From Oxalobacteraceae bacterium (GTDB lineage Bacteria; Pseudomonadota; Gammaproteobacteria; Burkholderiales; Burkholderiaceae_D): a stretch of 64,000 nt of DNA. Positions 826 to 45,671 of this stretch are shown here, piece by piece. Position 1 is the first letter of the stretch; each line of letters starts with the position of its first letter. Location: NCBI GenBank assembly GCA_025352145.1, contig JANXTY010000044.1:1-64000 (forward strand). The letters are read 5' to 3'. The position numbers and the translations under genes are program-made. The notes below the pieces were generated by a model that had not been told where the DNA came from, made no database searches, and worked only from the letters and a program-made list of their open reading frames with translations.

Positions 826-3177
826 TCACCCCCGCAACTTAGCAAAAGCCGAAGCCATCGCACTATTCCCCGTCGCTATCTGCGGCTGCGGTTTCTGCTG
901 ATGCTGCGCCAACCGCTTACTATCATTGCGATCCCCTCGTTGCTCAGGCTTGGCGCCCGGCTGTGGCGCACTGTCCGTCAGGCGCATGGTTAGTGCAATG
1001 CGTTTGCGTTTTTCATCGACTTCCAGCACTTTGACTTTGACGACTTGCCCGGCTTTGACGACGGTATGCGGGTCTTTGACGAAGGTGTTGGAGAGCGCAG
1101 AGATGTGGACTAAGCCATCCTGATGCACGCCGATATCGACGAAGGCGCCGAAGGCGGCGACATTGGTGACGACGCCTTCCAGAATCATGTCCGGGCGCAA
1201 GTCTTTGATTTCTTCCACGCCGTCCTTGAAGGTGGCGGTAGTAAATTCTGGGCGCGGGTCGCGGCCTGGTTTTTCCAGTTCTTTGAGGATGTCGTTGATG
1301 GTGGGTACGCCGAATTTTTCGTCGGCATATTTGGCGGGATTCAAGGACTTGAGCAGCTTGCCGTCGCCGATGACGGACTTCATGTCTTTCTTGATGTCGG
1401 CCAGAATTTTTTCAACCAGCGGGTAGGATTCGGGATGCACGGCGGAGGCGTCGAGGGGGTTGTTGCCGCCCATGACGCGCAGGAATCCGGCGGCTTGTTC
1501 AAACGTTTTTTCTCCCAGACGTGGGACGGCTTTTAAATCGGCACGCGAGCTGAACATGCCTTTGAGGTCGCGGAAGGTGACGATGCTTTGCGCAACGCTC
1601 GACGACAGGCCTGATACGCGCGCGAGCAAAGGCGCTGAGGCAGTATTGACATCGACGCCGACGGCGTTCACGCAGTCTTCGACCACGGCATCGAGCGAGC
1701 GCGCCAATTGGGTTTGGCCGACATCGTGCTGATATTGGCCGACGCCGATCGACTTGGGATCGATCTTGACGAGTTCAGCCAGCGGGTCTTGCAGGCGGCG
1801 TGCGATCGAGACTGCGCCGCGCAGGGAGACATCCATGTCAGGCAATTCACGCGAGGCAAATTCCGAGGCGGAATAGACTGACGCGCCGGCTTCGGACACC
1901 ACGATTTTGGTGAGCTTTAATTCTGGGCACATCTTGATCAAATCCTGCGCCAGCTTGTCGGTCTCGCGCGAGGCGGTGCCGTTGCCAATCGAGATCAGCG
2001 CCACGTTGTGTTTGGCGGCCAGTTGCGCCAAACAATGCAGCGAGCTGTCCCAGTCGTTTCTGGGTTGATGCGGATAAATGACGGCGGTATCGACGACTTT
2101 GCCGGTGGCATCGACTACCGCGACCTTGACGCCAGTGCGCAGGCCGGGATCGAGCCCCATGGTGGCGCGCGGGCCTGCGGGGGCGGCCAGCAACAGGGCT
2201 TTGAGGTTGAGCGCAAAGACATTGATCGCTTCGATTTCTGCGCGTTCGCGCAGTGCGCCCATCAACTCGGTTTCCAGGTGCATGAAGCTCTTCACGCGCC
2301 ACGTCCAGCGCACGGTATCGGCCAGCCATTTGTCGGCGGCGCGGCCCAGATTTTTGATGTTGAAACGAGCGGCGATGCGGCCTTCGCAGGGATTGTGCGG
2401 CGCGTCCCATTTCGGTTTTTCTACTTCTGTGTCGAGCCGCAAGACGATGCCCAGCATTTCTTCGCGGCGGCCACGCAATAGTGCCAGGGCGCGGTGCGAT
2501 GGAATGGTGTTGATGGATTCGGAATAATCGAAATAGTCGGCAAATTTCTCGCCTGCATCTTGCTTGCCCTCAACCACTTTCGATTCGACGATGCCATGTT
2601 CCAGCAGGTATTCGCGCAGGCTTTGCAGCAGCGTCGCATCTTCGGAAAAATGCTCCATCAAAATCTGGCGCGCGCCGTCCAGGGCGGCTTTGGTATCAAG
2701 CACGCCGGGGTTTTCGCCTGCTTCGGTGGTGAAGGCGGGTTTGATAAATTTGGCCGCTTCAGCCTCGGGTTCGATAGCAGGATCGGCCAGCAGGGTATCA
2801 GCCAACACCTTCAAGCCCGCTTCGGCTGCGATCTGCGCTTTGGTGCGCCGCTTGAGTTTGTAGGGCAGGTATAAATCTTCGAGCCGCGTTTTGTCTTCGG
2901 CATGCACGATGGCGTCTAGCAATACCGGCGTCATTTTCTTTTGTTCTTCGATTGAGTTGATGATCGTGGCGCGCCGGTCTTCCAGCTCGCGCAGATAGCG
3001 CAGGCGTTCTTCCAGCAGGCGCAACTGGATGTCGTCCAGGCCGCCAGTGGCTTCCTTGCGGTAGCGGGCGATAAAGGGGACGGTGGCGCCTTCGTCAAGG
3101 AGGGCGATGGCGGCGGCAACTTGTGCGGGAGAAGCGGCGAGTTCGAGGGCGAGGCGTTGTTCGATGGAGGGGAGCAT
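826..3177 (-). CDS. tex: Tex-family RNA-binding transcription accessory protein
   Basis: At 783 residues this is a full-length Tex homologue, a conserved cytoplasmic nucleic-acid-binding protein related to eukaryotic Spt6 and linked to transcription and RNA metabolism. The order of domains is visible. An N-terminal helical region covers roughly the first 200 residues. A YqgF/RNase H-like fold follows around residues 340-450 ([17 protein letters not shown]). Helix-hairpin-helix motifs lie around 490-570 ([19 protein letters not shown]). A C-terminal S1 RNA-binding domain lies around 650-725 ([20 protein letters not shown]). The last 55 residues are a low-complexity Gln/Pro/Arg tail. The gene stands alone and is divergent from the helicase gene at 3521. 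Confidence 0.95.
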
Positions 3178-7086: not shown

Positions 7087-8466
7087 TTATTTCAAGCGAG
7101 TCATGCTCCATTGCTGATTGGTCGCCCCAGTAGCATTCCACTGAATAATTTTCGCATCGTTGGCGGTGCTTAAATTCAAGACGTCTAGCGGCAAACCACT
7201 CAAGTTAGATTTAATTAAATAGTAGCCCGCGCTATTGGTGAAATTCCATTTTTGACCATTACCTCCCAAGTAAGGCCACTGCCCAATATTTGTTCCGGCA
7301 GCGGGATTGTTACCAAAAACATCTAAGCTTTCCAGACTGTTTGCGTTGATCATACTGTAATAACCGGTGCCTTGATTAATGACATACCACTGTTGATTTT
7401 TTGCGCCGGAGTAAGCGTACTGCTCTGCAAGGTAAACCGAAATCCCATTGATTACGGAGGGGGCTGTATCAATGGCCAAATCTTTGGCGCTATGTCGCGC
7501 AGTGAAACGGTACAAGCCATCACTTACACCGCCGCAACTGGCGATAGAAAAATCACGTGTGAGTGTTGGCCAGCCTCCGCTATAAGTCATTTTTAAAATA
7601 GCTAACTTGGCGTTGCCACTGTCGCTCAGATCATAATAATGTGTTGAGACATAGTTACATCCATTGTCTTTTAGCACGGCGATATGGCCTGGTCCTTTGT
7701 ACTTACCATCGACGTTGGGCAAAATCGTTCGGGTGCCGGTATAAGGCCCCGTGACACTGCTAGAGCGTGAAACTTCAATGTAATAAGTGCTATTAACGTT
7801 GAGGCAGCACTTCCCGCGATTGACAAACAAATAGTAATAATCACCATTGCGAGTGATGTAGGGGGCTTCCATATCCTTACCGCTGCCGCCCATAATATTT
7901 GTTACGCCAGAGGCTCGTTTTCCGGTGCTTTGATTGATTTCAGCAACGCCAATACCGCCGAAAAAAGACCCGTAAGACATATAGACTTTACCGTTGTGAT
8001 CACGGAATAAAGCGGGATCTATTGCGTTGATTTCCGCACTGCCACCGTAGGACTCCATCACGATGCCGAGGTCTGTCCAGCTTGGATTTTTTAGAGAGGC
8101 GGAACGCGCTACTCCTATCGCGGAGGCCGATGTGCCAAAGGTCGAAACAGAATAATAAATGTAGTAGTAACCATTCATGTGAATCACATCGGGTGCCCAG
8201 AAGGCTCCACTGAAACTAGGCACCTTTTTGCTAATCCAGGTGGGGTAACTAGTGAATACAGGGCCTGCGCCGCCATTCCAAGTAATTAAATCTTTGGAGG
8301 TGGAATACCAAATGCCGGTACCTGTCGTAAAGTTGAAATAGGTATCGCCGTCCTTAGTGATGGTGCCGGGATCATGTGCATTTTGTACGCCCGAGAGGGT
8401 TATTGCAGAGGTTGATGCCGTGAAAAATACAAAATTTATTATAAATAAAATTATTTTGGAAGCCAT
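7087..8466 (-). CDS. secreted GH43 endo-arabinanase with C-terminal ricin-type lectin domain
   Basis: This 459-residue secreted enzyme is predicted to cleave alpha-1,5-arabinan side chains of pectin. A signal peptide ends around residue 21. The five-bladed GH43 catalytic domain shows the expected acidic triad: D32 in HDPGT (base), D150 in NAIDPA (pKa modulator) and E200 in DMEAP (acid). From about residue 318 to the end there is a CBM13/ricin B-like carbohydrate-binding domain with three QxW repeats (NQQW, GQKW, NQQW). A strong ribosome binding site (GGGTGAG) precedes the ATG. It faces the rhamnogalacturonan lyase at 9224 across a shared control region, so the two probably act together on rhamnogalacturonan I. 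Whether it acts endo or exo cannot be told from sequence alone. Confidence 0.88.
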   Translation of the reverse strand: MASKIILFIINFVFFTASTSAITLSGVQNAHDPGTITKDGDTYFNFTTGTGIWYSTSKDLITWNGGAGPVFTSYPTWISKKVPSFSGAFWAPDVIHMNGYYYIYYSVSTFGTSASAIGVARSASLKNPSWTDLGIVMESYGGSAEINAIDPALFRDHNGKVYMSYGSFFGGIGVAEINQSTGKRASGVTNIMGGSGKDMEAPYITRNGDYYYLFVNRGKCCLNVNSTYYIEVSRSSSVTGPYTGTRTILPNVDGKYKGPGHIAVLKDNGCNYVSTHYYDLSDSGNAKLAILKMTYSGGWPTLTRDFSIASCGGVSDGLYRFTARHSAKDLAIDTAPSVINGISVYLAEQYAYSGAKNQQWYVINQGTGYYSMINANSLESLDVFGNNPAAGTNIGQWPYLGGNGQKWNFTNSAGYYLIKSNLSGLPLDVLNLSTANDAKIIQWNATGATNQQWSMTRLK

Positions 8467-9223: not shown

Positions 9224-11074
9224 GTGAGGCAAAAATTACAATTAAAAATGCTGGTGAGTAGCGCGATAGTGTCTGCAATGCTGTACGTGCTACCCGGAGC
9301 AGCACAAGCGGCGGGCAGGCAAATGGAAAGACTTGATCGGGGCGTGGTGGCGATCAATACTGGTGGGGATGTATTCATCAGCTGGCGAGCCTTGGGGACT
9401 GACGCTAGTGGCATGACCTTCAACATTTACCGTGGCAGCACCAAGCTCAATAGTTCGCCGTTGAACGTAACGAATTTTTTGGATACCAATGGTACGAGCA
9501 GCAGCAGTTATACCGTACGACCGGTGGTCGGGGGTGTAGAACAAACAGCGGCAAGTGCGGGCGCAACGTGGGGATCAATCTTCAAATCAATTCCGATTCA
9601 GCGGCCTGCAGGAGGCACCACGCCAGATGGTGTCGCTTACACTTATGACGCAAACGATGGGGAACCAGCTGATCTCGATGGCGACGGGGATTATGAACTG
9701 ATCGTCAAATGGAGCCCGACTAACGCTAAGGACAACTCGCAATCCGGTTATACGGGTAACACCTATGTAGATGCCTATAAGTTGGATGGCACGCGTATGT
9801 GGCGGATCAATCTCGGCAAGAACATTCGTGCTGGCGCTCACTACACCACTTTCCTTGCTTACGATTTTGATGGCGACGGCAAGGCAGAAGTAATGATGAA
9901 AACCGCTGACGGCACTGTCGATGGCAAAGGTGTCATGATTGGCACGGGCGCCGATCACCGCACCAGCGCAGGCTATATCTTGTCTGGGCCGGAATACCTT
10001 ACGGTATTCAATGGCCTGACTGGTGCAGCAATGGCGACTACCAATTACCTTCCTGCTCGTGGTTCGGTGTCTTCATGGGGCGACAGCTACGGTAATCGGG
10101 TCGACCGGTTCTTGGGTGGCGTGGCTTATCTTGACGGCGCCCGCCCAAGTGCTATTTTCTCACGGGGCTATTACACCCGTGCTGTCATCGCTGCCTGGGA
10201 TTGGCGGGGTGGTAAATTGACTAGTCGCTGGGTTTTTGACAGTGACGTTGCTGGTGGTGCCGTGCATGGTCAAGGTTCGCACTGGCTATCTGTTGCCGAT
10301 GTCAATGGCGACGGGAAAGATGACATCATCTATGGCGCGGCGACAGTGGGCAGCGATGGCAAGATGCTCTACAGCACTGGCCTTTGCCACGGCGATGCTT
10401 TGCATGTCGGCAAGTTCGATCCGAACCGCTCGGGGCAGCAGATTTTCATGGTGCACGAAGAACCTAATTGCTATGGGAGTCGTGGCGTGGAAATGCACGA
10501 TGCCGCAACAGGAAAAATCTTGTGGAGCGTCAGCGGACAAGGCAACGACGTGGGTCGCGGTGTCTGTATGGACATCGATCCCGCGCATCTAGGTGAAGAG
10601 TGCTGGGGTTCTGTCGGGGCCTTGATGAGTGCCAGCGGCGTGAAGATATCCGATTCGCATCCTAATAAATTTAACTTTGCCGTCTGGTGGGATGGCGATC
10701 TGTTGCGCGAGTCGCTCGATAGTACTCTGATCGATAAGTGGAACCCAGACACATTTAGTTTTGACCGCCTGCTGAGTGGATATACCTACGGAGCTTCATC
10801 GAACAACGGAACCAAGGCTACACCAGTGCTCTCGGCCGACCTGTTTGGTGATTGGCGTGAAGAGATTGTCTGGCGCAATGCCGATAGTTCGGCATTGCTG
10901 GTCTTTAGTACTACAATCCCGACCACGCACCGGATGCCGACTTTGATGCATAACTCGCAGTACCGTGTCCAAGTTGCCGGGCAAAATGCTGCGTATAACC
11001 AACCTCCGCACCCTAGTTTTTATCTAGGCGATGGTATGGGTACAGTGAAGCAGGAGCCGATTTTCACACCTTGA
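9224..11074 (+). CDS. secreted rhamnogalacturonan lyase (PL11 family)
   Basis: This 616-residue secreted polysaccharide lyase is predicted to cut the rhamnogalacturonan I backbone by beta-elimination, like YesW/YesX. A signal peptide ends at about residue 31 (AAQA). Conserved N-terminal sequence (QMERLDRGVVAI) and repeated calcium-binding Asp-rich segments (DLDGDGDYELIVKW, DFDGDGKAEVMMKTADG, DVNGDGKDDIIYG) are typical of the PL11 eight-bladed propeller. The gene begins with GTG at 9224 behind an AGGAGA ribosome binding site (9212-9217) and is followed by a strong terminator. It is divergent from the GH43 arabinanase gene, which suggests coordinated pectin breakdown. Confidence 0.9.
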   Translation: MRQKLQLKMLVSSAIVSAMLYVLPGAAQAAGRQMERLDRGVVAINTGGDVFISWRALGTDASGMTFNIYRGSTKLNSSPLNVTNFLDTNGTSSSSYTVRPVVGGVEQTAASAGATWGSIFKSIPIQRPAGGTTPDGVAYTYDANDGEPADLDGDGDYELIVKWSPTNAKDNSQSGYTGNTYVDAYKLDGTRMWRINLGKNIRAGAHYTTFLAYDFDGDGKAEVMMKTADGTVDGKGVMIGTGADHRTSAGYILSGPEYLTVFNGLTGAAMATTNYLPARGSVSSWGDSYGNRVDRFLGGVAYLDGARPSAIFSRGYYTRAVIAAWDWRGGKLTSRWVFDSDVAGGAVHGQGSHWLSVADVNGDGKDDIIYGAATVGSDGKMLYSTGLCHGDALHVGKFDPNRSGQQIFMVHEEPNCYGSRGVEMHDAATGKILWSVSGQGNDVGRGVCMDIDPAHLGEECWGSVGALMSASGVKISDSHPNKFNFAVWWDGDLLRESLDSTLIDKWNPDTFSFDRLLSGYTYGASSNNGTKATPVLSADLFGDWREEIVWRNADSSALLVFSTTIPTTHRMPTLMHNSQYRVQVAGQNAAYNQPPHPSFYLGDGMGTVKQEPIFTP

Positions 11075-11156: not shown

Positions 11157-12239
11157 ATGTTTGTTCGATTGTTTTTCTTTGTGGCCTTAATTTTGCTGGC
11201 ACCTGCAACACAAGCACATGAACCATTTGAAATTACGACCAACGTACGAATCCTTGAAAATGGCACAACACTTAATGTCCTGATTACCGATAGCACGGCC
11301 GCTCAGCTTTGCTTAGTCGGATCGAATGTCACCAACAAACTACATAGAGAACAATTTACGGCGAACCACTTGCAGGTAGAGCGGTGTGCGGCCCAGCTCT
11401 ACGAAGTACGCGATGAAAAAGGTTTACTCAAGCCCCGCGCTGTGCAGGTTCATTTGACTGAAGAAGATGACCTGGATGCAACCATCACTTACCCCCCCGG
11501 AACTGGCGATGTTTTACAATTTACAGCGGTGCATCTGACACGCCTGGCTGAGCCGACGTATGGTGCGACTTTTACAGCGACGAGCGAGAAGCATTTCCTT
11601 GGACAGAAACTCCTGCGTGCCGACGACAATACCATGCTGGTCAAGCGCCACTCGGCTGCTGTTGCAACCTATTCCGGTTTCGTGGATTTTTTACGGCTGG
11701 GGATAGCGCATATTCTTACCGGCTACGATCACCTGCTGTTCTTGGCAGGTTTGCTGATCGTTTGCCGACGATTACATACGGCCTTGTTGATTATCACTAC
11801 ATTCACGCTGGCGCACTCAATCACCCTGGCACTGGCCGGCCTTGGTTTGCTTACCCTGCCAAGTCGCATTGTCGAACCAGTAATTGCGGCGACGATCATT
11901 TTTGTGGGGATCGAGAATCTTTTGCGTGCGCGGCATGGACGCGAACCTAGTGGGCGCTGGATGCTCACCTTTGTGTTTGGGTTACTGCATGGTTTCGGCT
12001 TTGCCAGTGCGCTTCAAGAGGCGGGCATGCCCCAAGGTGGCTGGGGCATCGTGGCATCTCTATTTTCCTTCAATCTTGGGATTGAGCTGGGGCAGCTCGT
12101 GGTGGCGGCTTGTTTTTTGCCATTGTTGTTCTGGTTGCGCCATTTTCCTGTGTTTGCACGATGTATCGTTCCTATCGCCTCGTTTGGCGTGAGCTTCGCG
12201 GGTATTTATTGGTTTCTGCAACGCACAGTTTTTTCCTGA
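11157..12239 (+). CDS. HupE/UreJ-family membrane protein
   Basis: This 360-residue membrane protein has a signal-like N-terminus, an extracytoplasmic domain to about residue 165, and then several membrane segments in the HupE/UreJ_2 pattern. The motif GIAHILTGYDHLLFLAGLL, with paired His and Asp, is characteristic of the family, as is the later FGLLHGFGFA. HupE homologues are proposed nickel or cobalt permeases; the role of this longer form is not established and there is no hydrogenase or urease gene nearby. The start at ATG 11157 is preferred over GTG 11142 because GGAG sits six bases upstream. Confidence 0.8.
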   Translation: MFVRLFFFVALILLAPATQAHEPFEITTNVRILENGTTLNVLITDSTAAQLCLVGSNVTNKLHREQFTANHLQVERCAAQLYEVRDEKGLLKPRAVQVHLTEEDDLDATITYPPGTGDVLQFTAVHLTRLAEPTYGATFTATSEKHFLGQKLLRADDNTMLVKRHSAAVATYSGFVDFLRLGIAHILTGYDHLLFLAGLLIVCRRLHTALLIITTFTLAHSITLALAGLGLLTLPSRIVEPVIAATIIFVGIENLLRARHGREPSGRWMLTFVFGLLHGFGFASALQEAGMPQGGWGIVASLFSFNLGIELGQLVVAACFLPLLFWLRHFPVFARCIVPIASFGVSFAGIYWFLQRTVFS

Positions 12240-12298
12240 GATCGGATTTAGGAAAGCAGCCTGTAGATTTTTTGATGGAGACTGCGAAGAGGAGGAAT

Positions 12299-12450
12299 AA
12301 AAAAAGCCCGCTGATTGCAGCGGGCTAATATCAATTTTCTTAAGGAGAAAGTAGATGCTTCAATTATGTGCGCTTCATGTAGGCGAGTAAATGCCATATC
12401 TATGGCATGTTGAATCAATATTTTTGTCTCCTGCATTGCAGCACGTACCC
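12299..12450 (-). ncRNA. candidate small RNA A of a tandem pair
   Basis: Read on the minus strand, this stretch ends in a classic terminator: stem AGCCCGCTG/CAGCGGGCT (12305-12326) followed by a U-run (12299-12305). Exactly 64 bases upstream of the stem is a second hairpin, ATGCCATA-N2-TATGGCAT (12391-12408). Both elements and the spacing recur in copy B 206 bp away. Between them lies a pyrimidine-rich UUUCUCCUUAAG segment, complementary to a Shine-Dalgarno sequence. The 5' end is not defined and I could not identify a promoter. No conserved peptide is encoded on either strand. Confidence 0.6.
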
Positions 12451-12504
12451 TTTCTCATAGTTTGGGACGAAAGGTGTTTGCCCATGTTTAACGGACAACC
12501 AGTC

Positions 12505-12650
12505 AAAAAAAAGCCCACTAATTTAGTGGGCTAATATCTATTTTCTTGGAGAGAAATTGGATAACTTCATTATGTCTTGCTCCAAGGCACAGGTAAATGC
12601 CATAAATATGGCATTTTGAAGAAATGATTTTCTTCCTCTCCTTTGATGGG
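12505..12650 (-). ncRNA. candidate small RNA B of a tandem pair
   Basis: This is homologous to copy A. The minus-strand terminator stem AGCCCACTA/TAGTGGGCT (12512-12532) is followed by eight U residues (12505-12512), and the inner hairpin ATGCCATA-N2-TATGGCAT lies at 12597-12614, again 64 bases away. The 64-base interval matches copy A at about 39 positions without gaps, while the terminator stem has compensating changes (CG pairs in A become AU pairs in B). It has a UUUCUCUCC anti-Shine-Dalgarno-like segment. It lies about 50 bp downstream of the response regulator stop, so it could be its own transcript or processed from that gene's 3' UTR. Confidence 0.6.
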
Positions 12651-12697: not shown

Positions 12698-13408
12698 TCA
12701 GGAATCACCCCGTTCTATTTCTCTCCGTTCGGGTTGGAAATAACCTCGCCGCTGTGCTTCAAAAACTGCTTCACCACGTGAATGAACGGAAAGTTTACGG
12801 TAAATCGATTTAATGTGATTTTGCAAAGTGGCAACGGAAATGAAAAGCAAGCCAGCTATTTCAACATAGGAATTCCCACGTGCGATTAATTCTAAGACCT
12901 CGGTCTGACGCCGCGTAAGCACATCTTCGGTTGGAGTGATATTTCCAGGTGTTGTTTCAATTTTTTTCTCACCTCGAATCTGAGCCAGAACTTTACGGGC
13001 AATCTCCGGGCTCATGGGGGTTTCGCCTGCCATCACACGCAAAATATTGTCTGCTATGTCCATTGCTCTAGCGTCTTTTAGTAAGTAACCCAATGCACCA
13101 GCACGGAGGCAAGAAAAAACTGTATCGTCGTCCTTCGCTAAGGTGAGTACCAAGATGGCACATTCTGGATAACGTTGCGCACATGCGGAGATAATCTCCA
13201 GTCCTGAACCATCAGGTAAGCCTAAGTCGGTTAACAAGACATCGACCGAATTGGTTTCTAGCCAGGTTAATGCGGGTTGCACGCTGTCAAAAGCGGACAC
13301 TAGCTTTAATTTCGAATTTCGCTCAATGGCTAAGCTGAGAGATAACCGAGTTACTCTGTCGTCCTCAACAATTAATACACTGACTGGGGTGCTTTCATTT
13401 TCTTGCAA
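12698..13408 (-). CDS. NarL/FixJ-family response regulator (orphan)
   Basis: This 236-residue two-component response regulator binds DNA when phosphorylated. The receiver domain has the acidic pair E15/D16, phosphoacceptor D61 (VDVLLTDLGLPDG), T89 and K111. The LuxR-type helix-turn-helix lies around residues 165-230 (LTRRQTEVLELIARGNSYVEIAGLL). No histidine kinase gene is adjacent, so the partner is unknown. Immediately downstream on the same strand lie the two tandem candidate small RNAs, which could be its targets or its 3' UTR products. Confidence 0.92.
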   Translation of the reverse strand: MQENESTPVSVLIVEDDRVTRLSLSLAIERNSKLKLVSAFDSVQPALTWLETNSVDVLLTDLGLPDGSGLEIISACAQRYPECAILVLTLAKDDDTVFSCLRAGALGYLLKDARAMDIADNILRVMAGETPMSPEIARKVLAQIRGEKKIETTPGNITPTEDVLTRRQTEVLELIARGNSYVEIAGLLFISVATLQNHIKSIYRKLSVHSRGEAVFEAQRRGYFQPERREIERGDS

Positions 13409-24165: not shown

Positions 24166-27081
24166 TTAGAACTTATACCCAGCCGTCAACTTATAAGCGC
24201 GTCCAAGGATGTCTGCCGCACTGGTGATGTAGCCGGTATAGATCGAATTGGCGGTCACCATTGGGTTGACGTTGGTCACGTTGTTAACGGCTAAACCGAG
24301 GGTCAAACCCTTGAAGCCGGAGTACGACCCAGTCAGGTTGTATTGACTGTACGGTTTTACGTCGGTGTAGGTGGATCCGGCGCGTGGTGTGAGGTCGGTC
24401 AGCCCGGTGTTGTAGCGCTGAGAAACTTGCGCTTTCCACGAACCCATGCGCCAGCCGAGGGAGGCAGTATGTTTCCAGCGGAAGTTCATCTGAGGCATGC
24501 CGGCCAGGCCTGCATTCGAACCGGAACCACCGAAGCGGCCGTCGTTCGTGATGATGCCTACGTTCTGCAACCACACGCCGCCCTTTTCTGCGGTGAACTC
24601 GTATTTCTCATAGTAGCTGCCATCGAGCCGGGCATTAAAGATACCCATCTTGGTTGCAGGGAACTGGTAGGCCGCTGTCATATCGACACCGCGAATACGC
24701 ATTTGACCGCGGTTGGCCTGGCTGGCTACGATATGGTCGATAGTGCCGTCTGCTTTGCGGATAATCTGATCTACGTATTTAGCAGGATTTTGCTGGACTT
24801 CAGCAATGGCTACTGCGCCCAAAACGTCGGAGACAAGAATACCCCAGTAGTCGGCGGTGAGGGTCAGGTTCTTGAGGGGTTCAAGTGCGACACCAAACGA
24901 AAATCCCCTGGATTTCTCAGGCTTGAGGAAGCTGTTGTCTGGCGACTTAGTCCAGTAGTCCGTAGTGACGTTGCAAACCTGGGCGCTTGTGTAGCCGGCT
25001 ACTGGGGTACCGGTATTGGTTACCGTTGGCTGAGCGCTTGGACACAGGACGGGGTCGTCCATCATCTGGGTACGAACTTCAGGCGTAGGATTTTGAATGT
25101 CCATGATAGAGGGGGCGCGGAAGCCCGTGTTCGCCGAAGCGCGCAGCACCACTGATTTGGTGGGCTGAAGCCGGACTGATATTTTTGGATTCACCGTCGT
25201 GACCTTGAGATCGCTGTAATTGTCTGCACGGATCGCCGCATTCAATGTCAGCATTTTTGTCACCGGCGCTTCTATTTCCACGACGGCCGAGCTGATGTCA
25301 CGGTGTAGTCTTTTGGCTACGCCAATGGGGGATTCGCCCACTAAATCATGTTTGGTCACGATACCGAATTTGTCGATAGCCAGCGAGCCATCGGGGTTTT
25401 TTGCGATGTAGTCGGTTGGTGCGCCAAACACGCGAGCGGCGTCTCGGCGATATTCTGCCGAAGCTGCAAACGTCATCTCGCCTCCAGGAAGCGTCATCAC
25501 TTCACGGGAAAGGGTCGCGTCTATACCTTGGTTGAATGCTTGGTTGACGCGATAAGTGTAGTCGCTGGCCTCAATGCTTTTCAGGTAATCGAGTCCGGCG
25601 GCATCTTGCAGCCCGAATGGATTGAGGGTACCGTTGGTGAAACCTGCTTGTGCCTTGGAGTACAGGATGTAGCCGCCGCCTGCACGCGTGTTGCGCTCGG
25701 ACGCGCCATAGTTCAAACCCGCACGGTAATCCCAGCCTGCGACCGTACCTTCGGCTGCCAGCACGATGCGGTCATTGGATTGCTCATCGTTGCGATAGGC
25801 CGAGCCAAGTTCAGCCGGACCCCAGACAAAGAAAATGCTTCGGTTATTCATATTCAGGTTGCTGACCACACCGGGCGTTTTAGCCGGATCGATGAACATG
25901 GCTGGCGAGTTGGCACCCGTGTTGCTGCCTACTACCTGCACGGCTGGCGTGAGGCCATTGCCGGGGTAAAACTTGCTGGTCGATGGCATGTTGTAGGTGG
26001 TGGCGGGAGCCGTACTGCCCGGCGTCTGCATACCACGGTACTTTTGCACGATAAAATTCGAGTGTAGTACTTCCAAGCTGAGTTTATGGTTAGCAGATAA
26101 ATTCCAGCTCGCCTTGCCGAATACATTAGTGATCTCGCTGCCATCGGTTATGGCGTCAAAGAACAGTGGGTCGCGTTCGCAACCGGCATTGGAGTAGCTT
26201 GGAACGGCGCTGACGCTGCCAGCCCCCAGCGTTGCTAGTGAGTAAGGTGCGAGGCAACCTGTAGCGAACGTGGGATTGTAATTCGAGTTGGCGCTAGTCG
26301 AAAAACCGAAATTGGCTGTCGGGCTTTGGTTTTTGTTATCTGGGAGTAGGCCCACGCCCAGATTATTGAGAACCGAAGGACTGAAAAGTTTGGGGCGGTC
26401 ACCCTTAAATAGGGCCGACTTGGTCTGGTGATCAAATGAGGCATATGCGTTCCAGCCATCTTTTGCCAGATTGCCGAAGCCAGCGATGAAGCCGATAGCT
26501 TTAGTTTCTCCCCCTCCGCTGGCTTCAGGTTGGTTCAGTTCTGCTTTGATATCTACGCCTTTAAATGCGCGCTTGGTGTTGAAGTTCACCACACCGCCGA
26601 TAGCATCGGCACCGTAGATTGAGGAAGCGCCGTCGCGCAGGGTTTCGACGCGATCAAGGGCCATACGAGGAATGACCGATACGCTGACATACTGGTCTTG
26701 TAGCGGTTCGTTGGCTAAGCGGCGACCGTTCAGTAGCGTCAGTGTACGCATGGGCCCCAGGCCACGCAGGTTCACTACTGGGCCCGCTGCGCCGGAGTTT
26801 GTACCCAGCGATAAGGATTGCGGCATTTCCAAGACAAGATCTTTCAGTTCGGTATTGCCGCGTGCTTCCAGCTCAGTAGCTTTAATACTCGTGATCGGCA
26901 GCGCCCCCTCATTTGCCACTCGACGGATGAGCGAACCAGTGACTTCAATCAGTTCGATTTTTCCATTAGGACTGGCTGGCGGAGATAAGGATTGCGCTGA
27001 TACTTGATCCATTAAAACAAGGACCGCTACCGCGATGGCTGATGAAAGGCGTCTCGGTGGAAATTTGGTACGGGTATTCAT
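24166..27081 (-). CDS. TonB-dependent outer-membrane receptor
   Basis: This 971-residue outer-membrane receptor takes up large substrates with TonB energy. A signal peptide (to about residue 30) is followed by the plug domain (about 45-170: IEVTGSLIRRVANEG, MRTLTLLNGRR, VETLRDGASSIYGADAIGGVVNF) and a 22-strand beta-barrel ending in a C-terminal aromatic residue (LTAGYKF). The plug pattern is that of the OMR-type receptors often used for oligosaccharides or other polymers. It has a strong AGGAGA ribosome binding site and is divergent from the two DUF5060 hydrolases, with a perfect palindrome between them. I infer that it imports the oligosaccharide those enzymes act on. Confidence 0.93.
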   Translation of the reverse strand: MNTRTKFPPRRLSSAIAVAVLVLMDQVSAQSLSPPASPNGKIELIEVTGSLIRRVANEGALPITSIKATELEARGNTELKDLVLEMPQSLSLGTNSGAAGPVVNLRGLGPMRTLTLLNGRRLANEPLQDQYVSVSVIPRMALDRVETLRDGASSIYGADAIGGVVNFNTKRAFKGVDIKAELNQPEASGGGETKAIGFIAGFGNLAKDGWNAYASFDHQTKSALFKGDRPKLFSPSVLNNLGVGLLPDNKNQSPTANFGFSTSANSNYNPTFATGCLAPYSLATLGAGSVSAVPSYSNAGCERDPLFFDAITDGSEITNVFGKASWNLSANHKLSLEVLHSNFIVQKYRGMQTPGSTAPATTYNMPSTSKFYPGNGLTPAVQVVGSNTGANSPAMFIDPAKTPGVVSNLNMNNRSIFFVWGPAELGSAYRNDEQSNDRIVLAAEGTVAGWDYRAGLNYGASERNTRAGGGYILYSKAQAGFTNGTLNPFGLQDAAGLDYLKSIEASDYTYRVNQAFNQGIDATLSREVMTLPGGEMTFAASAEYRRDAARVFGAPTDYIAKNPDGSLAIDKFGIVTKHDLVGESPIGVAKRLHRDISSAVVEIEAPVTKMLTLNAAIRADNYSDLKVTTVNPKISVRLQPTKSVVLRASANTGFRAPSIMDIQNPTPEVRTQMMDDPVLCPSAQPTVTNTGTPVAGYTSAQVCNVTTDYWTKSPDNSFLKPEKSRGFSFGVALEPLKNLTLTADYWGILVSDVLGAVAIAEVQQNPAKYVDQIIRKADGTIDHIVASQANRGQMRIRGVDMTAAYQFPATKMGIFNARLDGSYYEKYEFTAEKGGVWLQNVGIITNDGRFGGSGSNAGLAGMPQMNFRWKHTASLGWRMGSWKAQVSQRYNTGLTDLTPRAGSTYTDVKPYSQYNLTGSYSGFKGLTLGLAVNNVTNVNPMVTANSIYTGYITSAADILGRAYKLTAGYKF

Positions 27082-27189
27082 AGTTCTTTCTCCTTTTGTA
27101 TTTGTAATAATCAGCTGGTGGAATGATCGCTTCGTACAACGGATTGCTGAGCCTAAATTCCCCCCTTGTCCAGCCCAAATGCCCAGCCA

Positions 27190-27220
27190 TTAAACTCATC
27201 ATATGAATTGATGAGTTTAA
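27190..27220. promoter_or_regulatory. perfect 12+7+12 palindrome between receptor and hydrolase genes
   Basis: TTAAACTCATCA (27190-27201) and TGATGAGTTTAA (27209-27220) are exact inverted copies around a seven-base spacer, halfway between the divergent starts at 27081 and 27326. It contains the ten-base core ACTCATCATA that also occurs inside the two GntR-type sites at 43185 and 43351, so it may be read by the same or a related regulator. Confidence 0.55.
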
Positions 27221-27325
27221 ATGTTCCGTTTGATTTCTTTGTTGTTTTGATGCGTAATCACGTCGCACTAATGTCTTGGGCTGCGGTTTTTGCATCATAA
27301 GTATTAATCGAATAAAAGGGGTGAT

Positions 27326-28951
27326 ATGTACAAATTATTTCGTCAGAAACTGCTACAGGCCCTTAGCATTGGTCTTTTGTCCCAACTCGCATGGAGTCAA
27401 CCGGCGATACCTCCATCAATAGAACCAATGGTTTCTACTTTCCCCTCGGGAAGCGGCAATGTTGAACGATGGGGAGCAATTGAGATAAAACTCATCGGAC
27501 CGGCAGAAGGTAATCCGTTTACCGAGGTCGTGTTATCTGGAAGGTTTAGCCAGGGAGGGCGTGTGGTCGAGGCTGCTGGCTTTTATGATGGTGAGGGAGT
27601 GTACAAGATTCGTTTCATGCCGGACATGGTAGGTACGTGGTACTTTGAAACGACAAGCAATCGGCCGGATTTAAGAGGAAAAAAAGGCTCCTTTAACGTT
27701 ATGGCACCCACTGCAGACAATCATGGTCCGGTCAGCGTGCGCAATATGTATCATTTCGCCTATGCCGATGGCACACCGTTCCGCCAGATTGGGACTACTA
27801 GTTATGCGTGGACACACCAGGGGGATGCGCTCGAAGAACAGACCTTACAGACAGTAGCCACCGCACCTTTCAACAAGTTACGGATGTGCATTTTCCCAAA
27901 GCACTATGAATGGAATAAAAACGAGCCGCTTCTGTATCCCTTTGAGGGGACGGCCCCAGCGAAGTGGGATTTCACCCGCTTTAATCCGGCGTACTTTCGC
28001 CACATAGAACAACGTATCGGCCAACTGCGAACGCTCGGCATCGAGGCCGACATTATCTTATTCCATCCCTACGATAAGGGACATTGGGGTTTTGATCGCA
28101 TGCCGTCAGGAGCGGATGATCGCTATCTGCGCTATGTCGTCGCTCGGCTGGCTGCTTATCGCAATATCTGGTGGTCCATGGGTAATGAGTTCGATTTCAT
28201 GACGGAGAAAATACCGACGGATTGGGATCGGTTTTTTCAAATAGTGCAAGCGGCAGATCCCTACCATCACTTGCGTTCCATCCATAACGGCTCAATTCTT
28301 TACAACCACACGAAACCGTGGGTGACTCATGTAAGCATCCAGAGCGGATCTGCCGCCGAAGATTTTGAACGCGCGGTGATCTACCGCGACATTTATCGTA
28401 AGCCAATCGTGTTTGATGAGGTCAAATACGAGGGTAACTTGCCACAGCGCTGGGGTAATCTTTCGGCTGAAGATATGGTACTGCGTTTCTGGCAGGGTAC
28501 GATCGCCGGCACTTACGTGGGACACAGTGAAAGCTATCTCGATCCCAACGAAATTATCTGGTGGGCCAAAGGCGGTGTGCTGCATGGACAAAGCGCAGCA
28601 CGGCTAGCATTCCTACGCAAAATCATGGAAGACGGTCCAGCCGACGGATTGGATCCTATTGATAAATGGCAGGATTACCCGTTTGCTGGCAAACGCGGGC
28701 AATATTATCTGGGCTACTTTGGGCGCGATGCACGCACTACATGGCCGTTTGAACTTTATAAAGCTGAACTTAAGGACGGCATGAAATTCAAGGCTGAGGT
28801 AATCGATACATGGAATATGACGATTACGTCGGTGGATGGGGTATTTGAAGTGAAGAAGCGCGGCAACTACCTGTTTGCCGATAAAGATGGCCGCAGCATT
28901 GCGCTGCCGGGAAGACCCTATATGGCGTTGAGAATTGTACGACTTCCGTGA
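27326..28951 (+). CDS. secreted DUF5060/DUF5605-type putative glycoside hydrolase 1
   Basis: This 541-residue secreted protein is predicted to be a glycosidase. A signal peptide (about 1-24) is followed by an Ig-like DUF5060 domain (about 40-130: [26 protein letters not shown]), then a TIM barrel with candidate catalytic acids E288 in [10 protein letters not shown] (acid/base) and E365 in [10 protein letters not shown] (nucleophile), the clan GH-A pattern, and a C-terminal beta-sandwich (DUF5605-like; [15 protein letters not shown]). The ribosome binding site is GGGG. It is paralogous to the next gene. Because the adjacent catabolic genes consume D-apiose, an apiosidase-like activity on apiose-bearing pectin is the best guess; it has not been shown for this family here. 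Confidence 0.75.
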
Positions 28952-28964
28952 GCAGACATCTAAT

Positions 28965-30605
28965 ATGATCATTTCTCTCTCGCGTCGCATACTCCTTATC
29001 TGCACAATACTTGTTGTGTCTGTGGCTTGGGGTCAGGCGCCTATTTTTGCCTCTACTGTTTCGGTACCAAAGATAGCCAGCACGTCTTCCGTTGTGTCTT
29101 CAGTGAAGTCAGCGCACACCAATGTTGAGCGATGGGATTTCTTTGAACTAAAGCTTGCCGGTCCTGTTGACGGTAATCCATTCACCGACGTCACGTTGTG
29201 GGCAACGTTTATGCATGGTCAGCGCACCGTACAGGCCACCGGTTTTTACGATGGTGACGGCATCTACAAAATTCGTTTCATGCCCGAGGTAGGTGGCGAG
29301 TGGCGCTATGAAACGACCAGCAATCGACCTGAGTTGCAAGGCAAGACCGGAATTTTCACAGTCACTGCTGCGAGCGCAGGCAACCACGGCCCAGTACGCG
29401 TGCGCAATACATTTCACTTTGCGTATGCGGACGACACGCCGTTCCGCCAGATTGGTACGACTAGTTACGCGTGGATGCATCATGGAGATGTGCTGCAAGA
29501 GCAGACACTGAAAACACTTGCTACAACACCTTTTAATAAATTACGAATGGCTATTTTCCCACAGCGACAAAATCATCCCGTCTCTTTTCCTTTTGCAGGA
29601 ACGCCGCCGACTAAGTGGGATTTCACCCGCTTTAACCCGGCGTACTTTCGTCATGTGGAACAGCGTATCGGTCAACTGCGCGCACTGGGTATCGAGGCTG
29701 ACATTATCCTGTTTCATCCTTACGACAAAGGGCAATGGGGTTTTGACCGCATGCCAGCAGAAGCCGATGATCGCTATCTACGCTATGTCGTCGCACGCCT
29801 GGCTGCTTATCGCAATGTCTGGTGGTCAATGGCTAACGAGTTCGATTTCATGACAGAGAAAACAGCGGCTGACTGGGATCGCTTTTTCCAAATTGTGCAA
29901 TCGTCGGATCCCTACGATCACTTGCGCTCCATTCATAACGGCATGACTTTCTATAATCAAACGCAGCCGTGGGTGACACACGCGAGCATCCAGAGTGGTT
30001 CGGCAGCTGAAGACTTTGGGCGGGCAGCGGTCTTTCGCGATGTCTATCGCAAACCAATCGTATTTGATGAGGTCAAGTATGAAGGGAATTTGCCGCAGCG
30101 CTGGGGTCAACTATCGGCCGAAGAAATGGTACTGCGCTTTTGGGAGGGCACCATTGCCGGTACTTATGTAGGGCATAGTGAAAGTTATCTCGATGCTAAA
30201 GATGGAAGCACATGGTTGGATAAGGGTGGCGTGTTGCGCGGTCAAAGCGTCGCAAGGATTGCATTTTTACGCAAGATCATGGAGGAGGGGCCAGCCGACG
30301 GACTCGATCCCATCGACCCGGGAATAGATTATCCATTTGCCGGAAAGCGCGGAACCTATTACCTCGCTTATTTTGGGCGCGAAAACCATACTACGTGGCC
30401 GTTTGCGCTTTACAAAGCCGAACTCAAGGACGGCATGAAATTTAAGGTAGAGGTTATCGACACATGGAACATGACGATTACTCCTGTAAACGATGTGTTT
30501 GAAGTGGAAAAAAAGGACAACTACATGTTTGTCGATAAAGAGGGGCGCAGCGTTACATTGCCAGACCGGCCGTATATGGCATTGCGGATTACACGGCAGC
30601 CATGA
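28965..30605 (+). CDS. secreted DUF5060/DUF5605-type putative glycoside hydrolase 2
   Basis: This 546-residue paralogue of the preceding gene has the same layout: signal peptide (to about residue 27), DUF5060 (about 50-140), TIM barrel with E292 in [10 protein letters not shown] and E369 in [10 protein letters not shown], and the C-terminal sandwich. Over most of its length it closely matches the first copy, but its N-terminal leader and a stretch after FNKLRM (shorter by several residues) differ. The Gly-to-Ala change next to the acid/base Glu may alter specificity. I chose ATG 28965, 13 bases past the previous stop, over TTG 28935. The pair is a tandem duplication in one operon. Confidence 0.75.
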
Positions 30606-44317: not shown

Positions 44318-44429
44318 GACGATCATCCAAAATTAATCTGAAACGACAAACAGGAATTTACGGCTGCGGCGATGCGCGTTTATGCGTTTAGAGCGGCAGC
44401 CCAGGTCAAGCAAATGGGGAGGAAATAGA

Positions 44430-45671
44430 GTGAGTGAACGGATACACGCAACTTACTGGCTTGAAACCGGGGACGACCCGGCGCGTGCAGCCCAGGTCAT
44501 TGCCGGGGAACAGTCAAGCGGCACTTTTGTAGCGCTTCCCACCGAAACGCCCGCGCTCAAGGAGCGCTCGGGTGCCCGCGTCGAACGACTGGAAACATTA
44601 GATGAAGTCGCTTCACCCAGTCTATTGGGTGGAATGAGTTCAACAACATACCGGCGCTGTTTGCTTGAGTTGTCGTGGCCGTTGGAAAATATCGGTGCGT
44701 CGCTACCGAACTTGCTTTCAACTATCGCAGGTAATTTGTTCGAACTGCGTCAAGTCTCGGGATTGCGATTGACTGGCATCACTCTTCCTGCTGCCTTTGT
44801 TGCAGCGTATCCGGGGCCCGCTTTTGGGATCGCCGGCACACGCAAGCTGGCGAACGTCACGACCGGCCCCTTGATCGGTACCATCATCAAGCCCAGCGTC
44901 GGTCTTTCTGTCGAAGAGACGGCGCAGCAAGTGCGGCAACTGGTCGCCGGTGGAATAGATTTCATCAAGGATGACGAGCTACAAGCTGACGGCACCTATT
45001 GTCCGTTCGACCAGCGGGTGCGTGCTGTCATGCGCGTGGTCAATGAAGAAGCCCAACGCTGCGGCAAGAAGGCCATGGTGGCTTTTAATTTGACAGGCGA
45101 CCTCGACGAGATGCGCCGTCGTCATGACCTGGTGCTGGCTGAAGGCGGTACTTGCGTGATGGTGTGCCTGAATTCTGTCGGCCTCGTTGGTTTGCGCGAA
45201 TTACGTCGGCATTCACAATTGCCTATTCACGCGCATCGTGCCGGATGGGGCTACTTGAGCCGCTGTCCTCAGTTGGGATGGGATTACGCACCTTGGCAAA
45301 TGATTTGGCGTTTGGCTGGTGCCGATCATTTGCATGTCAACGGTTTACGTAACAAATTTAGCGAGCCTGACGAGACTGTTATAGCTGCGGCGCGTTCGGT
45401 ACTGGCCCCAGTAAGGCCGGAGGCTGCCATGCAAGCGATGCCGGTGTTTAGCTCAGGACAAACGGGTTTGCAAGCTGCAGAAACCTATGCGGCGCTTGGG
45501 TGCGCCGACCTGATTCATGCAGCGGGCGGCGGCATCTTCGGCCACCCTGGCGGTGTTGCGGCCGGTGTCACGGCGTTACGTGAGGCATGGGTGGCAGCGA
45601 TAGCGGGCGTGCCCTTGGCACAGCATGCGGAACGTAGTCCGGCACTGCGCGACGCGCTGGGTTTTTGGTAA
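44430..45671 (+). CDS. oiaT: RuBisCO-like protein, probable 3-oxo-isoapionate-4-phosphate transcarboxylase/hydrolase
   Basis: This 413-residue member of the RuBisCO superfamily is not a CO2-fixing enzyme. Metal-binding residues are kept: the carbamylated Lys K180 with D182 and E183 in FIKDDE, K154 in GTIIKPSVGLS and His in PIHAHRA. The second Lys of RuBisCO's KPK loop is Ser (S156). In apiose clusters this family either releases glycolate and 3-phosphoglycerate (OiaT) or decarboxylates (OiaX). The glycolate oxidase genes nearby favour OiaT. It starts at GTG 44430 behind a perfect GGGGAGG. Its stop overlaps the kinase start (TAATG). Confidence 0.65.
   Translation: MSERIHATYWLETGDDPARAAQVIAGEQSSGTFVALPTETPALKERSGARVERLETLDEVASPSLLGGMSSTTYRRCLLELSWPLENIGASLPNLLSTIAGNLFELRQVSGLRLTGITLPAAFVAAYPGPAFGIAGTRKLANVTTGPLIGTIIKPSVGLSVEETAQQVRQLVAGGIDFIKDDELQADGTYCPFDQRVRAVMRVVNEEAQRCGKKAMVAFNLTGDLDEMRRRHDLVLAEGGTCVMVCLNSVGLVGLRELRRHSQLPIHAHRAGWGYLSRCPQLGWDYAPWQMIWRLAGADHLHVNGLRNKFSEPDETVIAAARSVLAPVRPEAAMQAMPVFSSGQTGLQAAETYAALGCADLIHAAGGGIFGHPGGVAAGVTALREAWVAAIAGVPLAQHAERSPALRDALGFW

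Follow-up and report, generated by a model that had tools for sequence, protein, structure and literature searches.

A putative response-regulator switch for two predicted tandem sibling small RNAs resembling RF02278 in an Oxalobacteraceae bacterium

The window, a stretch of 64,000 nucleotides from an Oxalobacteraceae bacterium, carries two related elements, each made up of a palindrome, a promoter-like site and a predicted double hairpin, next to the gene of an orphan response regulator (Table 1). The reading we consider fairly probable is a response-regulator switch producing two sibling RNAs of approximately 58 nt, which would act in trans by blocking Shine-Dalgarno sequences and which resemble the Rfam family RF02278 (Betaproteobacteria toxic sRNA). 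It builds on the sequence parts, the promoter layout, the predicted fold, the similarity to RF02278 and the rarity of the layout. To these the model adds transcription, its starts, activation, phosphorylation, target pairing and the order of evolutionary events. The phosphorylated LuxR/NarL-type regulator would bind a 7-2-7 palindrome abutting each -35 and would activate a weak sigma-70 promoter from a class II position, at approximately -43.5. One double-hairpin RNA would be made from each promoter and would end at its own intrinsic terminator. By analogy with known relatives, the first hairpin would offer CUCC or CUCCUU to purine-rich Shine-Dalgarno sequences, whereby translation initiation would be blocked. 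As for the origin, an RF02278-type RNA may have been duplicated, may then have lost the 5' UGUCUCC site together with the upstream box, and may have gained new operators, presumably in this order.

Table 1. Positions of the operators, promoters, predicted RNAs and regulator gene in the window
Feature	Position	Strand	Description
Operator, copy A	12597..12614	-	ATGCCATA-TT-TATGGCAT, palindrome of 7-2-7 type
Operator, copy B	12391..12408	-	ATGCCATA-GA-TATGGCAT
Promoter, copy A	12569..12597	-	TTTACC-N17-CATAAT
Promoter, copy B	12363..12391	-	TTTACT-N17-CATAAT
sRNA copy A, predicted 58 nt	12505..12562	-	hairpin UUUCU-CUCCA-AGAAA, then terminator 12532-12512
sRNA copy B, predicted 59 nt	12298..12356	-	hairpin UUUCU-CCUUA-AGAAA, then terminator 12326-12305
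Orphan response regulator	12698..13408	-	receiver PF00072 + GerE PF00196 (LuxR/NarL-type HTH)

The original prediction described two minus-strand copies 206 bp apart, and the positions of the palindromes agree with this. The interval from palindrome to terminator is indeed 64 bases long in either copy, and 39 of the 64 bases are identical without gaps, compared with a mean of 17.6 and a maximum of 32 in 5000 shuffles. The pairwise likeness of the copies is thus real and beyond chance. In the immediate flanks 21/60 bases are identical upstream and 17/60 downstream. The likeness was proposed for the interval as a whole, and while the total holds, its distribution is uneven, with 14 identical bases among the first 29 (-35, spacer and -10) versus 25 among the last 35. 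Within the first 29 bases identity is concentrated in the two promoter hexamers; the spacer between them is the least conserved stretch, and the hexamers and the later part are the most conserved. A reading of the interval as a single structured RNA is not supported, since its first half is the predicted promoter. The terminators, AGCCCACTA-AAT-TAGTGGGCT and AGCCCGCTG-CAAT-CAGCGGGCT, are each followed by a T run, and in two of the nine stem pairs A-U has given way to G-C through changes in both strands of the stem, in agreement with the co-variation noticed earlier.

In both copies the final T of the operator is the first T of the -35. The operator core TGCCATANNTATGGCA, an inverted repeat of dimer type, abuts the -35 and stands at an activating position, with its centre in either copy at approximately -43.5 relative to the predicted start, the presumed RNA start being set 7 nt after the -10 in each. 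At 0-1 mismatches the core occurs in the 3.48-Mb assembly in this pair only, and a pattern combining operator half and promoter gave two matches in the window and none in 100 shuffles. Each promoter match is just 9/12, and 2.8 such matches are expected by chance in the surrounding 1.5-kb region, so that weight attaches to the repeated placement and little to any single match. The arms of the palindrome are identical between the copies, whilst the two central bases differ and no compensatory change is seen. Since the arms are fixed and the centre varies, with the -35 and -10 abutting, the palindrome is read as a protein-binding DNA site. It had been taken for the 5' hairpin of the RNA, but it lies upstream of the -35 and -10 and is most likely a DNA operator absent from the RNA.

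The exact operator-promoter pattern matched the own genome only, among 195 genomes of the family. A looser form, applied to 392 family genomes in which the own genus is represented once, matched the own genome three times and one other genome (G037) once, this last match lying in an AT-rich stretch and perhaps being due to chance. No match was found in viral contigs with one pattern or in plasmids with one query. A mobile repeat was considered and rejected: with one mismatch allowed the core is found nowhere else, the operator-promoter layout recurs in the genome only at contig C42, and the next hit of the structure model described below (C5:63573) looks like chance.

A response regulator with a receiver and a LuxR/NarL-type HTH adjoins the pair, as originally noted, and no kinase was seen beside it when the listed ORFs were inspected by eye. 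The palindromes lie 84 and 290 bases from its stop codon, and predicted RNA A begins 136 bases past the stop. A 7-2-7 symmetry suits a dimer of LuxR/NarL type; against this, the arms differ from the NarL heptamer consensus. Sites of the form CCATANNTATGG number seven in the genome, and three of them have CATAAT at the identical distance, namely the pair and C42:12962. Downstream of the latter, at approximately 390 nt from its predicted start, follows the gene of a hybrid histidine kinase (HisKA, HATPase_c and receiver, with Hpt just under cut-off), and between this site and the kinase gene no terminator-like RNA was found, save for a weak match inside the kinase reading frame.

For a comparison across genomes, 36 genomes of the same family were split by their best match to the regulator at E<=1e-50 into 13 with and 22 without a homolog. 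G007, which has a partial homolog (1.2e-44) and one site, was excluded from the split, as were 24 genomes of the order that belong to other families (five sites in total). There were 41 SCCATANNTATGGS sites in the genomes with a homolog and 11 in those without (Mann-Whitney p 0.001, phylogeny ignored), and with the own genome excluded 37 sites remained in 12 homolog-bearing genomes (p 0.002, phylogeny again ignored). The reversed pattern, used as control, gave 20 and 41, respectively, which is no difference. Three of the 13 homolog-bearing genomes (G017, G023 and G031) are without a site, and in G030 a site is found approximately 170 nt upstream of the homolog's own gene. These homologs may not be orthologs: by eye, many of them appear to adjoin MscL-like or petA-like genes, and the tree leaves the window regulator unplaced. 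When 38 regulator loci, many of them with distant regulators, were scanned by pattern with flanks to approximately 1.5 kb, such an RNA was found at the window locus and at 0 of the 37 others. A search for the regulator in the genome-contig collection gave five distant matches only.

Position, symmetry and the cross-genome correlation, in which phylogeny is ignored, point to the neighbouring NarL/LuxR-type regulator as the likely controller. The strongest alternative retains the small RNAs and the operators and assigns the palindrome to another protein, be it a repressor, the C20 paralog or an unrelated factor, with the neighbour as a bystander. A second regulator of the family is present in the genome (G000:C20, 52% identical), CCCATAAATATGGG sites in relatives sit away from the regulator homologs that were found, and no close homolog accompanies the 3 sites of G006 or the 2 of G005; against this stand the closeness of two exact palindromes to the regulator stop codon, the rise of site counts with the presence of the regulator family, and a 7-2-7 symmetry of the kind bound by LuxR/NarL-type dimers. 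We regard the assignment to another protein as unlikely, though worth keeping in mind. Palindromes resembling ATCCCATAAATATGGGAT recur in intergenic-looking sequence of G024, G022, G016, G030 and G037, and in G022 eight SCCATANNTATGGS sites were counted versus none for the reversed pattern. This looks like the regulon of some factor.

Each predicted RNA is a double hairpin, in which a weak 5-bp stem with the loop CUCCA (A) or CCUUA (B) is followed by the intrinsic terminator. Folded from the chosen starts, copy A reaches -15.7 kcal/mol (z -4.3) and copy B -19.4 kcal/mol (z -4.2), with 0/200 shuffles as good in either case, and the predicted dot-brackets are the same save for one base in the terminator loop. 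The central proposal, that two homologous small RNAs with anti-Shine-Dalgarno segments lie in tandem, gains from this, both RNAs folding far better than shuffles. No AUG was seen by eye in either of them. Two sRNAs of approximately 58 nt are probably encoded at the locus, as judged from these predictions.

The elements could also be terminators or attenuators only, belonging to the regulator mRNA or being of leader type, without any trans-acting RNA. Operator A starts 84 bases and predicted RNA A 136 bases past the regulator stop, and Rfam models of amino-acid leaders score 16-29 bits, all under cut-off; this reading is nevertheless improbable, as no leader peptide was seen, no co-directional gene follows the pair, there are two separate promoter-like sites, and the likeness to known trans-acting RNAs reaches into the part before the terminator. 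The next gene past the pair is HupE/UreJ-like and convergent, with its end at 12239. An amino-acid leader or attenuator was rejected on this arrangement and on the scores, the best for Trp_leader being 28.9 versus a cut-off of 41, and for Phe_leader 26.3 versus 55.

No Rfam family reaches its own cut-off at the pair. RF02278 scores 27.6 bits on copy B and 22.6 bits on copy A, where the gathering cut-off is 50. Ranked over the genome, a true member at contig C41 comes first with 54.8 bits, copy B second and copy A third, and the next place scores 21.1. The E-values of the pair are 0.0025 and 0.045, and among 14 control genomes chance matches to RF02278 turned up in 13 at E<=10 and in at least 5 at E<=0.1. 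With lax thresholds RF02278 is the best Rfam match of copy B, while on copy A its 22.6 bits are exceeded by Trp_leader (28.9), MicA (27.0), Phe_leader (25.9) and JA04 (25.9), all under their own cut-offs. The terminator therefore contributes much of the score. When the 30 bases before the terminator were aligned with 27 canonical 5' halves, the best local scores were 36 (A) and 30 (B), the shuffle means being 18.3 and 18.1, and 0/150 shuffles reached either score. A sequence-only model (R1) of the same 27 halves, which are of mixed subtypes, found no match in the window, and for this reason the likeness to RF02278 before the terminator is, by these alignments, real but modest. A structure model (R2) of seven sequences scored 81.3, 62.1 and 53.8 bits on the own-genome RNAs, the window copies being the latter two, and 29.7 on the next; this separation is not independent, because all three own-genome RNAs went into the model. 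The match at 29.7 bits, C5:63573, was rejected, as it lies behind a tRNA-like sequence and by eye looks like a chance terminator match. The pair had been described as matching no nameable family. We revise this, the copies being diverged relatives of RF02278, though under its cut-off, and probably cousins of the known betaproteobacterial double-hairpin sRNA type rather than an unknown class.

The 5' single-stranded UGUCUCCUC site is absent from both copies, and AUCCAAUUU / AUCUACUUU are found in its place. All 27 aligned RF02278 sequences, which were picked as canonical, have GUCUCCUC, beginning [UC]GUCUCCUC. The C41 member keeps both the 5' tail UGUCUCC and the upstream box, whereas the window pair has neither, and the palindrome stands instead.

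Members of RF02278 above the cut-off were present in at least 54 of the 80 Burkholderiales genomes examined. Out of 31 loci with a member 28 were read, two being omitted as too short and L051 likewise omitted, and these comprised 16 of a non-CCACC-loop subtype and 12 of CCACC type. In 15/16 non-CCACC loci and in 1/12 of CCACC type, a -10-like hexamer is present whose end is 5-6 bases ahead of position 1 in the Rfam model. To count the box ATATCTGATAT...AATTGG ahead of the -10, a loose pattern was used that had been devised with the sequences already in view; it matched 10/16 non-CCACC loci (the C41 member included), 1/12 CCACC loci and neither window copy. Among the loci L050-L079 and L085-L093, boxes of this kind often lie upstream of non-CCACC members of RF02278, and one was seen in the own genome in L043 at approximately 1566-1665 (minus). 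The box may be the 'common upstream motif' which excerpts of PMC5688073 give for Burkholderia.

It is very improbable that the palindrome forms the 5' hairpin of an RNA of approximately 105 nt that includes the 64-base interval and the terminator, for although an RNA fold of -7.3 kcal/mol is predicted for the 18-mer and the terminators co-vary, the -35 and -10 stand at a fixed distance past the palindrome in both copies, the third site has CATAAT at equal distance with no terminator close behind, conservation is lowest in the promoter spacer, the arms are identical with differing central bases and no compensatory change, as a DNA site predicts, and 15 of the 16 non-CCACC relatives have their -10 just before model position 1. 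There is a general trap here, in that a promoter operator beside a small RNA can mimic an RNA hairpin.

Of the 80 genomes, at least 5 (G014, G022, G028, G032 and G037) have tandem copies of RF02278 on the same strand, with spacings of 185-378 bp, and among the matches listed G015 has two copies on opposite strands. The double-hairpin RNAs of Burkholderia are stated to be non-tandem in PMC5688073. Dispersed clusters of RF02278-like copies, one per 0.7 to 6 kb, were seen by pattern, with six copies in G005:C113:124000-143000 (L092) and four in G047:C1:4196000-4207000 (L093). A guanidine-II riboswitch is located at L085 2583-2629 (G022), no more than 300 bp from two tandem RF02278 members.

Excerpts of PMC5688073 and PMC7011215 name as double-hairpin RNAs ncS03, ncS05, ncS27 and ncS62 of Burkholderia cenocepacia and Hsnc059, 063, 086 and 107 of Herbaspirillum seropedicae, with lengths of 59 (ncS03), 67 (ncS05) and 57 nt (ncS62), and 92 nt for ncS27, which is processed. 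As far as these excerpts describe them, RF02278 RNAs share with the window pair a short length, two hairpins of which the second is an intrinsic terminator, CU-rich anti-RBS segments, and several copies per genome. The window pair differs in that the 5' UGUCUCC(UC) tail is absent, so that there is one CU-rich site rather than two, in that the loop is reduced to CUCCA/CCUUA, and in having a palindromic operator instead of the upstream box. In the excerpted text of PMC5688073 the CU-rich segments of RF02278 members are predicted to cover ribosome-binding sites and NcS27 overexpression slows growth, and excerpts of PMC10987360 assign NcS27 a role in metabolism shutdown upon nutrient deprivation. 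According to PMC11722255, S17 of Bordetella pertussis directly represses BP2158, and without S17 92 genes rise, of which 70 have complementary sequence at or near the ribosome-binding site. The short form of S17 is 67 nt long, has two anti-RBS sites and bears strong similarity to the RF02278 RNA bdhR1; its level depends on the response-regulator system BvgAS, which is comparable to the control proposed for the window pair (same source). The same paper has S17 arising by processing of a 190-nt precursor, and its promoter is unresponsive to BvgA in vitro, whereas the window RNAs have their own predicted promoters with adjacent operators. The literature, searched by title or abstract with most subscription journals outside the scope, returned no response-regulator-controlled tandem pair of RF02278-like RNAs.

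Response regulators driving redundant sibling sRNAs are known from GacA-RsmY/Z and LuxO-Qrr. The Rsm RNAs sequester CsrA via GGA motifs and the Qrr promoters use sigma-54, and neither GGA-motif CsrA sequestration nor sigma-54 promoter features were seen in the window pair. The NmsR sRNAs of Neisseria meningitidis are longer than the window RNAs and are not known to lie beside a response regulator. Like the window pair they are homologous to one another, stand in tandem and have unpaired CU-rich stretches complementary to RBSs, a likeness drawn from their description in excerpts of PMC5688073, where Qrr1 is also said to adjoin luxO.

In the excerpted text of PMC5688073 the authors state that what controls the accumulation of their observed sRNAs is not known. 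A pair with a private operator beside a response regulator is a testable case of a brake RNA placed under a signal, and also shows what remains of an RF02278-type RNA once the 5' site is lost. A dedicated switch controlling the pair is plausible. In a bolder and rather doubtful extension, a duplicated anti-Shine-Dalgarno growth-brake RNA would have been trimmed until one loop seed was left and would have been taken over by a two-component switch; the regulator, driving the two truncated RNAs and, through the matching promoter layout, the hybrid kinase, would complete a single translational brake that responds to a signal and is so far known from one genome. If there is such a single brake, the different loop seeds CUCCA and CCUUA would imply split target sets.

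If they act as their relatives do, the window RNAs would be expected to repress mRNAs whose Shine-Dalgarno sequences are of GGAGA type. All of AAGGAGAAA, which precedes the gene of a TonB-dependent receptor (24166-27081, minus), is complementary to UUUCUCCUU of copy B, a duplex that ranks fourth among 46 window ORFs after simple gene picking with no shuffle control; the best predicted duplex of this uncontrolled ranking falls on an internal GTG of a RuBisCO-like ORF. The receptor, which adjoins apiosidase-like enzymes, is a candidate target and a lead only. Plant cell-wall utilisation fits the window genes at 24166-30605, 9224-11074, 7087-8466 and 44382-45671, which comprise the TonB receptor, two apiosidase-like proteins, a rhamnogalacturonan lyase, a GH43 with a ricin-type lectin, and a RuBisCO-large-chain-like protein. 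The last of these possibly belongs to apiose catabolism.
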